Of a DNA stretch of 40,331 nt, positions 24,209-30,631 are shown in pieces. Under the pieces are notes generated by a model. That model did not search any database. It was not told the origin of the DNA and saw nothing but the letters and a program-made list of their open reading frames with translations. The position numbers and the translations under genes were made by a program. Position 1 is the first letter of the stretch, and every line of letters begins with the position of its first letter. Source of the stretch: Vulcanimicrobiota bacterium (GTDB taxonomy: Bacteria; Vulcanimicrobiota; Vulcanimicrobiia; Vulcanimicrobiales; Vulcanimicrobiaceae). The stretch is taken from NCBI GenBank assembly GCA_030041115.1, contig JASHOM010000036.1, positions 1 through 40,331 on the forward strand. The letters run 5' to 3'.

Positions 24209-24526
24209 ATGGCAAAGAAGCATCCTCGATCCTACCCCCTGGAGTTCCGCCAGAACGTCATCGAACTTGCGCGCGCCGGCAAGAAGTTTGACGAACTGGC
24301 CACGCAGTTCGACCTAGCCCCGCAGACCGTGCGGAACTGGATCAAGCAGGCCGAGCTCGACGGCGGCCGCCGTACCGACGGTTTGACCTCGACTGAACGC
24401 AACGAGCTCGCCAAGCTGCGAAAAGGAAACCGGCAGCTCAAGCTCGAGCGTGAGATCTTGTCAAAAGCCGCGGCCTGGTTCGCTCGCGAGACCGATTCGA
24501 TTCCGCCCCGGTCTTCGAATTCGTGA
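24209..24526 (+). CDS. IS3-family transposase OrfA (helix-turn-helix)
   Basis: Protein of 105 residues: MAKKHPRSYPLEFRQNVIEL, then the HTH region KKFDELATQFDLAPQTVRNWIK, then a leucine-zipper-like segment NELAKLRKGNRQLKLEREIL SKAAAWFARE (two parts). OrfA binds the terminal repeats and is fused to OrfB by -1 frameshifting in active elements. The C-terminal ~11 residues (TDSIPPRSSNS) differ from the usual KETDR ending. It overlaps orfB by 4 nt (GTGA at 24523). It appears intact, but its partner is not. Confidence 0.85.
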   Translation: MAKKHPRSYPLEFRQNVIELARAGKKFDELATQFDLAPQTVRNWIKQAELDGGRRTDGLTSTERNELAKLRKGNRQLKLEREILSKAAAWFARETDSIPPRSSNS

Positions 24527-25256
24527 GAGCGCATCAGGCCCTTTGGCCCATTGCGACGCAATGCCGCGTGCTGGAGGTCTCGACCAGCGGTTATTATGCG
24601 TGGCTCAAACGCTCGCCCTCCGATCGTGCGCGAGCAGATCAAGCGATCGGCGATGCCGTTGAGGTCCAGTGGTATCCAAGGTGCGAGCCGTCGCAAAGGC
24701 TATCTCACGATGGTCCGCGCTCGCGATGCCCGGCCAGCTCCCGATCTTGTCGATCGGAAGTTGACCGCAGAGGCTCCGGATCAGCTCTGGGTTGCCGACA
24801 TAACGGACGTTCCCACGCTCGCGGGGTTTCTGTTCGTCGCAATCGTGCTCGATGTTTTCAGCCGCCGAGTCGTGGGATGGGCGATGGCAACACATTTGCG
24901 GACGCAGCTCGTGCTCGACGCCCTGGACATGGTGCTCAGCCAGCGGCGGCCGACCAATGTGATTCATCATTCCGATCAAGGTTGCCAATACACGTCGATT
25001 GCTTTTGGCAACCGCTGTCGCGAAGCTGGTGTCCGACCTTCAACGGGCTCCGTTGGCGACTGCTACGACAATGCGATGTGCGAGAGCTTCAACGCAATCC
25101 TCGAGTGCGAGCTGCTCGTTCGGCATCGGTTCTCGACGGCACGCGAGGCAGCTCTCAGCGTGTTCGACTGTATCGGGTGGTACAACGCAGCGGCGGCACA
25201 CAGCGCTGGAGATGCTGTCACCGGCTGACTACGAAAAGCGGAAGACCGCTGCATGA
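24523..25256 (+). pseudogene. IS3-family transposase OrfB, broken
   Basis: The start (MRAHQALWPIATQCRVLEVS TSGYYAWLKRSPSDRARAD) is in the frame beginning at 24523. Near 24660 the sequence jumps into another frame at GIQGASRRKGYLTM, with roughly 35-40 residues of the usual protein missing, so a deletion changed the frame. The rve integrase core follows with all three catalytic acids: WVADITDVPT (D), IHHSDQGCQYTS (D) and DNAMCESF (E). A second frameshift at about 25185 moves the ending TALEMLSPADYEKRKTAA into the third frame, ending at 25256. It cannot make a functional transposase. Confidence 0.85.
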
Positions 25257-26611: not shown

Positions 26612-26914
26612 ATGATCTCCAAATCAGTGCCGGCGCGCTCCCATACCCGCACCTTCGCGACCGGCATCGGCTACATCACCGAACATGCCCACGAGCGCGC
26701 CTGTAGACACGCGGCGCGTTCGTTCGAGCACGGCATCGGCTACGCCAGTGCACCGAAGAAGGCAGCGAGGGTGCAGCTGCGCGGCGTCATGTCGGTCGAG
26801 ACGGCTTCAATCGAGATGGAAGCGGTGGTGATACTCTCTCGACGCTGCAAGGATCCGGTTTATCATCTCATCGTTGCCTACGCTAAGGGTGACTGTCCGT
26901 TAGATCGCCGTTAG
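26612..26914 (+). CDS. N-terminal fragment resembling a MobA/VirD2-type relaxase
   Basis: 100 residues from the ATG at 26612, with GAGGTGA 7 nt upstream. The opening MISKSVPARSHTRTFATGIG resembles the 'MI.K....KSF...V.YI' start of mobilisation relaxases, and MEAVVILSRRCKDPVYHLIVAYAKGDCP resembles their 'R..KPVYHxxLSWxxGExP' block. The protein then stops, where relaxases run 300 or more residues and carry the HxH metal site. It is thus probably a truncated remnant from a mobilisable element, without nicking activity. The family call is from pattern memory only. Alternatively it is a stand-alone small protein. Confidence 0.45.
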   Translation: MISKSVPARSHTRTFATGIGYITEHAHERACRHAARSFEHGIGYASAPKKAARVQLRGVMSVETASIEMEAVVILSRRCKDPVYHLIVAYAKGDCPLDRR

Positions 26915-26945: not shown

Positions 26946-26984
26946 TTGCGGCCAATACTCCAATGGAGTATACTTACCAAGGTG
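26946..26984 (+). promoter_or_regulatory. Leaderless promoter with nested operator for the BrnT operon
   Basis: TTGCGG (26946-26951) and TATACT (26969-26974) are separated by 17 bp. The palindrome ATACTCCA-a-TGGAGTAT (26955-26971, perfect 8-bp arms) fills the spacer and touches the -10. The GTG start at 26982 lies 7 nt after the -10, so the transcript should begin at or near the start codon. This fits autorepression by the antitoxin. Confidence 0.7.
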
Positions 26985-27293
26985 TGGGATCGCGCGTTCG
27001 ACGGTTGGACCTGGGACGCCGAGAAGAGCGAGCGCTGCTACGACGAGCGCGGGTTTGACTTCGACTATGCGGCCAAGATTTTCGAAAGCGATACGATCGA
27101 GTGGGAGGATCGACGGCGCGACTACGGCGAGCCGCGGTTCGTTACGGTTGGCCAGGTCGACGATCAGATTCTCATCGTCGTATGGACCCGGCGCGACGAC
27201 ACGAGACGCATCATTTCGGCGCGGCCGGCGTCGAGACAGGAGAGGGAGAAGTTCTATGGCGAGCGTGAAGCGCACCAACAAAGAGATTCGTAA
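26982..27293 (+). CDS. brnT: BrnT-family ribonuclease toxin
   Basis: Protein of 103 residues from the GTG at 26982 (a TTG at 26931 would lie upstream of the promoter). BrnT features are FDGWTWDAEKSERCYDERGF (the 'F.WD..K...N..KHG' opening), DFDYAAKIFESDTIEWEDRR, EPRFVTVGQVDDQILIVVWT and DTRRIISARPASRQEREKFY. BrnT toxins have a RelE-like fold and cleave RNA, arresting growth until inactivated by BrnA. The family's usual His in the first helix is not obvious here (YDERG instead of xKHG), so activity may be changed. It overlaps the antitoxin gene by 38 nt. Confidence 0.82.
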   Translation: MWDRAFDGWTWDAEKSERCYDERGFDFDYAAKIFESDTIEWEDRRRDYGEPRFVTVGQVDDQILIVVWTRRDDTRRIISARPASRQEREKFYGEREAHQQRDS

Positions 27294-27609
27294 GGAGCGC
27301 GGCCGCGGGGACGCGAAGAAGCTTGCGTCGTTTACCGATCGTGACATTGAGCGGTTTGCCCGCGAGGATGAGAGCGACACGAGGGAGCTCGGCGAGCCGC
27401 GGTACGTGCCGCCCCGGACGGACGTTCGTGCATTACGCGAGCGCCTCGGCCTGTCGCAATCAGAATTTGCTCGGCGATACCTTCTTTCGGTGCGCACTGT
27501 GCAGCAGTGGGAGCAGGGGCAGCGCGAACCGTCCGAGCCGGCACGGGTGCTGCTCTTTGCGATTGTTCGTAATCCTCGCGCTGTTGAGCGCGTATTGCGC
27601 TCGCGATAG
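27256..27609 (+). CDS. Antitoxin: BrnA-like N-terminus with XRE helix-turn-helix
   Basis: Protein of 117 residues from the ATG at 27256. The N-terminus is polar and charged (MASVKRTNKEIRKERGRGDA KKLASFTDRDIERFAREDES, two parts), the region that would clamp the toxin. The C-terminus is an XRE/HTH_3 domain: VRALRERLGLSQSEFARRYL then LSVRTVQQWEQGQREPSEPA. The typical BrnA is a ribbon-helix-helix protein, so an XRE DNA-binding half is a variant seen with BrnT and RelE-type toxins. It should repress the operon at the palindrome 26955-26971. Confidence 0.8.
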   Translation: MASVKRTNKEIRKERGRGDAKKLASFTDRDIERFAREDESDTRELGEPRYVPPRTDVRALRERLGLSQSEFARRYLLSVRTVQQWEQGQREPSEPARVLLFAIVRNPRAVERVLRSR

Positions 27610-27623
27610 GATCGCGCGATTGC

Positions 27624-27734
27624 ATGTCAAGTCACGGCGAATGGGAACTCTCGGCCAGCGGTCCCGGCCGATCGCGCACCGCACGCGATTCATACCGAGA
27701 GCTGCTCGAGCTTCGGAAGGAGAGTCAACCATGA
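27624..27734 (+). CDS. 36-residue ORF coupled to the DUF2442 remnant
   Basis: MSSHGEWELSASGPGRSRTA RDSYRELLELRKESQP (two parts), from the ATG at 27624 to a TGA at 27732 that overlaps the next ATG (ATGA). The overlap and the normal codon pattern suggest it is translated, but the product is too short to assign. It could be the tail of a truncated partner gene. No ribosome site stands out. Confidence 0.4.
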   Translation: MSSHGEWELSASGPGRSRTARDSYRELLELRKESQP

Positions 27735-28008
27735 CGTCAGTCCGAAAAGCGAAGACCAGGATTCTCACAAGCCGCGCGGAGATGAGAAAAGCCGTGGCAG
27801 CCGCTCGCCGCTGTGAGAAAGTGGCGACGAAGATCCGTCATGCCCGCTATGACGCGAAAGGCTACGTAATCATAGTTGAACTATCGACCGGATCGGTTCT
27901 AACCGTGCCACGCCGGATTATTCCCGGCTTTGCAAGAGGGCGGCGCTTGCCGATCTCGAGATTGCTCCCGGCAGCGAGGGCCTTTGGTCGACACGCGCCG
28001 GGACATAA
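27731..28008 (+). pseudogene. DUF2442-like gene with frameshift
   Basis: Starts at the ATG 27731 (overlapping the previous stop). The first ~70 codons read as DUF2442: KIRHARYDAKGYVIIVELST then GSVLTVPRRIIPGFA. The family continues 'xLxDxEISPGGEGLxW', and this is found in a different frame, as ALADLEIAPGSEGLWS, ending at TAA 28006-28008. A frameshift at about 27935 therefore splits the gene. DUF2442 proteins often sit next to DUF4160 or toxin genes and are suspected antitoxins, in keeping with the BrnT pair next door. Confidence 0.6.
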
Positions 28009-28030
28009 TCCTGCGGGCGAGCCGCTTGGT

Positions 28031-28483
28031 TTACTTCTCGGGTGCCGGCGAGGGGCAAGGCTCGTGGTGAACGTCCCATTGAATTCCCTGCGCCTTTATC
28101 TGCTCAAAATTCGGATTGTCCGGCATTGGCACCATCGTGCCGTTACGCGGGTTGTAGTATAAATTTTGCGCCCCTAGAACATGGGTAACCTGGCCAGGCG
28201 GTACCTTAAAAAAGAAAACCATATCATCTGCACTTGGCCCAAATAATCCGTATCGGACCAAGGGCCGCTGGCATGGCTTTACCTCAGCGAGTATTTGCTT
28301 AATACGAATCACTTGCGCGGGGCTCAGTTCCGGATGTCCCGGCGTGTTGTACTCCCCTGCCGCGAAGCTGAATCCACGATCTGGGGCAGGGCTTGAGCTA
28401 GTGCCAAGCGTTGCGAAGCAGATAATCGCACTGGCAGTTAGAAATCTTAACGAATGCACAACCTTGTTAAAAGGAGTCGACAT
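28031..28483 (-). CDS. Secreted hypothetical protein
   Basis: Protein of 150 residues from the ATG at 28483. The N-terminus MSTPFNKVVHSLRFLTASAI leads to a hydrophobic stretch and a probable cleavage around residue 31-35. The mature part has PELSPAQVIRIKQILAEVKP, VFFFKVPPGQVTHVLGAQN and two Cys (CQRP and EPCPSPAPEK) that could pair. GC content is lower than in the first 24 kb. No family recognised. Its 3' end lies close to the DUF2442 remnant on the other strand. Confidence 0.65.
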   Translation of the reverse strand: MSTPFNKVVHSLRFLTASAIICFATLGTSSSPAPDRGFSFAAGEYNTPGHPELSPAQVIRIKQILAEVKPCQRPLVRYGLFGPSADDMVFFFKVPPGQVTHVLGAQNLYYNPRNGTMVPMPDNPNFEQIKAQGIQWDVHHEPCPSPAPEK

Positions 28484-29947: not shown

Positions 29948-30631
29948 CCACAACGGCGATCGAGGCGCGCGGTCAGGCGCGGCACGCTCTCATCGCAACC
30001 GTGGTTCTATCCGGCCTTGGCCTTCGCGGCCTACACCGGCGCTCGGCGCGGAGAGGTACTCGCGGTCAAATGGTCCGACATCGACCTCGATGCCGGCACG
30101 GTGACCATTCGTGAATCACTGAGCGAGCCACGCTCTGGTCTCGCATTCAAACGTCCAAGGAACTGAAAGGTACGAACCATCACCATCAGTTCGGAGCCGG
30201 GGATAATCCTCCGCACGCACAAAGCAATGCAGGCAGAGGAGCAGCTCTTCCTCGGTGAGGCGTATAAGAAGATCGACCTTGTCTTTGCGCGGCCTGACGG
30301 CGTCACATCAATCACGCCGCACGATCTTCGCGATACGCATGCTTCGCTGCTCGCAAAGGCCGGCGTGCCGATCGAGGTGATCAGCAGCCGTCTGGGTCAC
30401 AGCTGCATCAGCATCACGGTCGATCGGTACCTCACGGTCTATCAGGAGCGAGACGCTGCCGCAGCGGCCGCCTTCGAGCGGCTGGTGGCATATTTAGGCT
30501 GGTGGCATAATCAGAATGAAAGGCGACGTGACAAAAATGTGACAAATCGGCTTTTCCACACCCGGTCACGCGCCGGAAACCCCCACAGCGTAAAGACTTT
30601 TGATTTAGCCCCAGCGGGATTCGAAGTGTAA
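29948..30631 (+). pseudogene. Tyrosine recombinase (phage-type integrase), decayed
   Basis: The catalytic half survives in a single frame: WFYPALAFAAYTGARRGEVL (box-A Arg), then VKWSDIDLDAGTVTIRESLS, an in-frame TGA at 30164-30166, VRTITISSEPGIILRTHKAM, ITPHDLRDTHASLLAKAGVP (HxxR), ISSRLGHSCISITVDRY (His and candidate catalytic Tyr). Both the N-terminal half and the segment between KKIDLVFARPDG and ITPHDLR are missing, so it is doubly deleted. The C-terminus ends in DLAPAGFEV, encoded by a tRNA-3'-end-like sequence, the mark of an integrase beside its attachment site. The ATG at 30227 could still start a 134-residue C-terminal piece. Confidence 0.82.
30606..30625 (-). other. att-like remnant: tRNA 3'-end sequence
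   Basis: Read on the reverse strand, TTCGAATCCCGCTGGGGCTA has the form of a T-loop followed by the 3' side of a tRNA. No tRNA body lies upstream of it on that strand. Phage-type integrases often recombine at such tRNA ends, so this is a likely attachment-site core marking the left boundary of the 30.6-40.3 kb element. Confidence 0.5.

Follow-up and report, generated by a model that had tools for sequence, protein, structure and literature searches.

A BrnT toxin operon with a helix-turn-helix antitoxin, a candidate operator across its promoter and a predicted leaderless toxin start in a Vulcanimicrobiota bacterium

How might a toxin gene be expressed, and held in check, when its start codon follows the promoter almost at once and a palindrome lies across that promoter? 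The question is raised by an operon in a 40,331-nt contig of a Vulcanimicrobiota bacterium (the whole stretch analysed, hereafter the window), in which a BrnT-family toxin gene precedes the gene of a helix-turn-helix (HTH) protein. We consider it likely that the pair forms a type II BrnT/HTH module under autorepression, in which the GTG-initiated toxin message has no leader or almost none and the antitoxin is translated from a Shine–Dalgarno-like site of its own.

The first gene product matches the Pfam BrnT profile PF04365 with 80.1 bits (E 1.5e-22; curated cut-off 34.5 bits). Its AlphaFold model (pLDDT 91.5) adopts the RelE-like/BrnT fold and matches the Salmonella toxin 7vd7_A (E 1.2e-6, TM 0.72). 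Profile and fold thus place the protein in the BrnT family, without implying that it acts by the same mechanism. The toxicity of BrnT, RelS and Aave_1720 depends on a Lys-His pair, K16/H17 in Brucella abortus (PMC13284704, PMC10714953). The preliminary description had suspected that the His of the KHG motif was missing and had proposed alignment with characterised BrnT as a check; the alignment bears this out, as residues E22-R23-G24 of the window toxin fall on K-H-G of the solved homologue 7vd7, with Glu-Arg at the Lys-His position.

The antitoxin matches Pfam HTH_3 with 38.2 bits (E 1.5e-9), and the Pfam search returned no BrnA match for it, in agreement with the earlier proposal that an XRE domain replaces the BrnA ribbon-helix-helix. 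Its best NCBIfam resemblances, both below cut-off, are to NadS and MqsA-type HTH domains. The toxin-first order and the 38-nt gene overlap are those of a BrnTA module, but the pair was not filed as BrnTA because the partner is HTH_3 rather than ribbon-helix-helix BrnA. The next open frame (window 27731-28159, MTSVRKAKTRILTSRAEM...) has no Pfam match.

Direct reading confirmed the bases of the promoter that had been proposed, TTGCGG and TATACT separated by a 17-nt spacer (26952-26968) and followed by seven nucleotides (26975-26981) before the GTG (Table 1). This gap falls within the 6–7 nt between -10 end and start codon that characterise leaderless genes. A -35/-10 pair scoring as well and ending no more than 12 nt from the start arises in ~1% of shuffles of this locus. 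A generic promoter scan of the window did not list TTGCGG/TATACT; it did report a second weak promoter-like site at 26839-26866. No Shine–Dalgarno-like 4-mer lies 3–11 nt upstream of the toxin GTG. The GGAG in the right palindrome arm was ruled out as the toxin Shine–Dalgarno sequence, being 13 nt away.

Table 1. Features of the BrnT/HTH operon, in window coordinates.
Feature	Position	Strand	Basis or remark
-35 element TTGCGG	26946..26951	+	Weak, 3/6 match to TTGACA; direct sequence reading
Operator candidate, perfect 8+1+8 palindrome ATACTCCA-A-TGGAGTAT	26955..26971	.	8/8 arms paired
-10 element TATACT	26969..26974	+	5/6; direct sequence reading
Predicted transcript 5′ end	26980..26982 (A26980, G26981 or G26982)	+	From -10 spacing; leader 0–2 nt
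BrnT-family toxin, 103 aa, GTG start, ERG in place of KHG	26982..27293	+	Pfam PF04365
Purine-rich GAGAGGGAGAAGTTCT (stretch also written GGAGAGGGAGAAG), likely ribosome-binding site, before antitoxin ATG	27240..27255	+	Sequence reading
Antitoxin, 117 aa, N-terminal arm and C-terminal XRE/HTH_3 domain	27256..27609	+	Pfam

The palindrome had been described as nested in the spacer. Its 8-bp arms are indeed perfect, but it extends beyond the spacer: the three base pairs that open the -10 element (26969-26971) also close the palindrome. Perfect palindromes with arms of at least 8 bp and no more than 3 nt between them are not rare in the window, which holds 14 distinct examples; a chance repeat was nevertheless rejected, because the position of this one is conserved in relatives. 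A search of the 2.6-Mb assembly for the 17-bp motif with up to three mismatches found no second site, which rules out an operator regulon at that limit.

Relatives of the toxin were found in 34 of the 149 genomes searched in the phylum, and relatives of the antitoxin, at a stricter limit, in 33. Twenty-seven loci were compared, the window included; the antitoxin search matched all of them except L021, a broken copy. A pattern search that kept the best-scoring pair within ~110 nt placed a TTGNNN-17/18-TA-type promoter just before the toxin gene in 24 of the 27, where the spacer usually holds an inverted repeat. A promoter score of at least 8 near the start occurred at 19/19 tested loci, as against ~1% of shuffled upstream regions. 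The closest toxin relatives, L003 and L004, carry TTGCCC and TTGCCA where the window has TTGCGG, and most other relatives have TTGAC[AGT] as the -35 element.

The dyad keeps its place as well. Its centre lies 9 bp before the -10 element in most loci, and 6 bp before it in L003, L004 and the window. Across the phylum loci, pairing of the arms reaches 58% at the 9-bp offset, compared with 13–36% at other offsets. The two arms change together, from TACTCCA/TGGAGTA in the window to TACGCTA/TAGCG in many relatives, TACGCCG/CGGCGTA in L006 and CTACGGC/GACGTAG in L008. A conserved dyad at a fixed place in the promoter lends indirect support to the idea that the antitoxin may bind there and repress.

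An ordinary leadered operon, with transcription starting further upstream, the palindrome lying in the 5′ leader and TTGCGG/TATACT unused, would suit the weak -35 element of the window and the other promoter-like site at 26839-26866, as well as a co-oriented open frame that ends 31 nt before the -35. We regard this arrangement as unlikely, given the near-consensus promoters at the same place in the relatives and the lack of a Shine–Dalgarno sequence suitably spaced from the GTG. The upstream frame itself (window 26612-26914) has a weak relaxase (MobA/VirD2) match below cut-off and is probably a fragment.

Gene pairs of the same composition occur in other phyla. Annotated plasmid pairs of BrnT with an HTH protein were found in Acetobacter, Komagataeibacter, Gluconobacter, Methylobacterium, Methylomarinovum and Azospirillum, and HTH partners lacking that annotation were read from the sequence in Skermanella, Tistrella and Roseomonas. 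In the pairs of Roseomonas, Acetobacter, Komagataeibacter, Skermanella and Methylobacterium a dyad again lies over the promoter and the gap is 5–7 nt, and the TACGCT half-site of the phylum relatives reappears in some of the proteobacterial-plasmid pairs. In Tistrella TATAAT overlaps the ATG, whereas in Azospirillum TSH100 (L200) KHG is retained and the gap, at ~25 nt, gives a longer leader; no clear operator was seen in L190 or L192. By the same scan none of six ribbon-helix-helix-partnered loci, a small sample, showed the layout. The layout looks real because it is found again in these relatives from other bacteria; the promoter, operator position and leaderless distance put forward in the preliminary description thus draw support from both the phylum relatives and the proteobacterial plasmids. 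A further BrnT relative, from Bauldia litoralis (L032 1743-2117), is followed by an overlapping DUF1508 gene without a DNA-binding domain, possibly an unusual antitoxin.

The same comparison bears on the altered toxin motif. Most HTH-partnered relatives have x-Arg at the Lys-His position; the His is kept in 2/34 HTH-partnered toxins versus 3/6 of the sampled ribbon-helix-helix-partnered ones, a tabulation that left out Azospirillum TSH100 (KHG, HTH partner) and Roseomonas (ERG). On these observations a strict tie between the His-to-Arg switch and the HTH partner was rejected, and only a tendency stands. Neither the HTH antitoxin nor the lost His is peculiar to the window operon; both characterise a widespread BrnT/HTH subfamily.

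Support for a leaderless start also comes from the genome at large. Matches to TANNNT ending 6–7 nt before predicted starts are in excess in this genome (16 observed vs ~6 expected, P 6e-4) and in two relatives, G054 (12 vs 1.7, P 2e-7) and G096 (6 vs 1.1, P 1e-3). These counts use starts from a simple gene caller written for the analysis and cover sampled parts amounting to about a third of the assembly. No enrichment appeared at a gap of 2 nt in the sampled parts of the same three genomes. Because of the excess at 6–7 nt, leaderless genes are probably common in these genomes, which adds computational evidence for such genes in a little-studied phylum.

In the likely reading given at the outset, one sigma-70-type promoter would transcribe the operon, BrnT toxin first and HTH antitoxin second. 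An antitoxin dimer, alone or with the toxin, would bind the palindrome, which fills the spacer and runs into the -10 element, and so shut out RNA polymerase. When the promoter is free, transcription would begin at the GTG or within ~2 nt of it, and toxin synthesis would start on an mRNA that has little or no leader and lacks a Shine–Dalgarno site, while the antitoxin would be translated from a separate purine-rich site within the last part of the toxin gene. It is proposed that this difference in translation starts favours antitoxin over toxin.

The gap between -10 element and start codon varies among the relatives. It is 0–12 nt in all 22 loci with an assignable start (those of L016 and L021 were read by eye, and their frames break downstream). 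The leaderless distance, 6–8 nt, is found in the window, L009, L014 and L037. About half of the relatives have a gap of only 0–4 nt, so the layout is not always leaderless: the gap is 2 nt in L004, L005, L010-L013 and L016, and 0–4 nt in L007, L021, L028 and L034-L036. By the usual spacing rule, a promoter at 0–4 nt should yield a transcript that begins inside the toxin gene and lacks the toxin start codon. The lack of any enrichment at a gap of 2 nt makes such relatives puzzling. Beyond these loci, no start codon follows the -10 element in L003 or L015.

A rival reading keeps this promoter and operator but has transcription start past the toxin start codon, in which case the promoter would serve mainly the antitoxin and toxin would be made only from upstream read-through. 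Besides the gaps of 2 nt or 0–4 nt in many relatives, two features of the short-gap loci fit this scheme. GGAG stands 8 nt before the start in L004, L005, L010-L013 and L016, where it may serve as a Shine–Dalgarno sequence, and in the TAGCGGAG group it disrupts the symmetry of the operator; Shine–Dalgarno-like 4-mers 8 nt before starts are also common genome-wide. The other feature is a gene in the same orientation that ends in LLFVMVDGWALVC-GGV, or in something close to it, and lies directly upstream of many short-gap loci and precedes the toxin in L005, L007, L010-L013, L016, L021, L034 and L036; we take its end to resemble that of FliP/SctR. For the window the scheme seems quite unlikely. 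The 7-nt gap there suits a start at the GTG, and the GGAG, at its 13-nt distance, would be caught within a 7-bp hairpin that RNA folding predicts for the operator in read-through RNA, although the RNA stretches around the operator fold no better than shuffles (z -0.9 and -0.5).

A broader and rather doubtful idea is that the distance from -10 to start acts as a dial in BrnT/HTH operons, with 6–8 nt giving a leaderless toxin message and 0–4 nt an antitoxin-only transcript, toxin then coming solely from read-through RNA. If so, the window would be one leaderless representative of its family, and about half of the family's copies would leave the toxin start out of the transcript. Placement of the start relative to the -10 element could then set the toxin-to-antitoxin ratio, an idea that the layout makes simply testable.

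A transposase pair (HTH_Tnp_1 and rve; window 24209-25225) and a phage-integrase fragment (30227-30628) flank the operon region, suggesting a mobile or decayed island. Internal stops or frameshifts interrupt the toxin genes of L017, L010, L011, L016 and L028, as if modules often decay, and with the startless L003 and L015 they indicate that not every copy is functional. That the window operon has itself decayed or lost activity among the remains of mobile elements, as the transposase, the integrase and relaxase-like fragments and the broken relatives might suggest, is very unlikely, since neither of its genes is broken, the toxin is modelled with confidence and the palindrome has no mismatch.

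With the BrnT/BrnA systems of B. abortus and other bacteria (PF04365) the window pair shares toxin family, fold and toxin-first overlapping operon; it differs in its XRE/HTH partner, in Glu-Arg for Lys-His and in the predicted leaderless promoter layout. BrnA autoregulates its own promoter (PMC10714953, PMC11980606), and BrnT-HTH fusions have been reported (PMC11980606). RelS-RelI of Mycobacterium tuberculosis likewise combines a BrnT-like toxin, encoded first, with an antitoxin that is not ribbon-helix-helix, but RelS keeps K9/H10, unlike the window toxin, and inverted repeats were reported absent from the region examined (PMC13284704). The plasmid pairs of Acetobacter, Komagataeibacter, Gluconobacter, Methylobacterium and Azospirillum have the same gene pair and, except in Azospirillum TSH100, the xRG toxin motif, but belong to another phylum and carry other operator letters; the literature searched contained no experimental study of them.

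MqsRA and HigBA likewise encode the toxin first and an HTH antitoxin second, which in both represses its own promoter (PMC4803016), and palindromes are described for HigA (PMC6987408); the toxin families of both differ from that of the window, and the N-terminal zinc domain of MqsA is absent from the window antitoxin. The literature searched held no description of an operator-in-spacer layout with very short -10-to-start gaps in BrnT/HTH operons. The compact control design envisaged in the preliminary description is supported as to layout, but it has precedents in M. tuberculosis, where toxin–antitoxin module mRNAs are mostly leaderless (32/37 pairs; PMC3898074) and mycobacterial module operators are usually centred on the -10 element, as in MazEF6 (PMC9477884). 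Those modules belong to other toxin and antitoxin families, MazE6 being a ribbon-helix-helix protein. A leaderless regulator of a toxin–antitoxin locus is likewise known in PaaR2 of Escherichia coli O157 (PMC8630535). On this comparison, each ingredient of the window operon is already known from other toxin–antitoxin systems; the operon links an apparently little-studied BrnT/HTH subfamily with a promoter layout that is conserved across two distant groups of bacteria.
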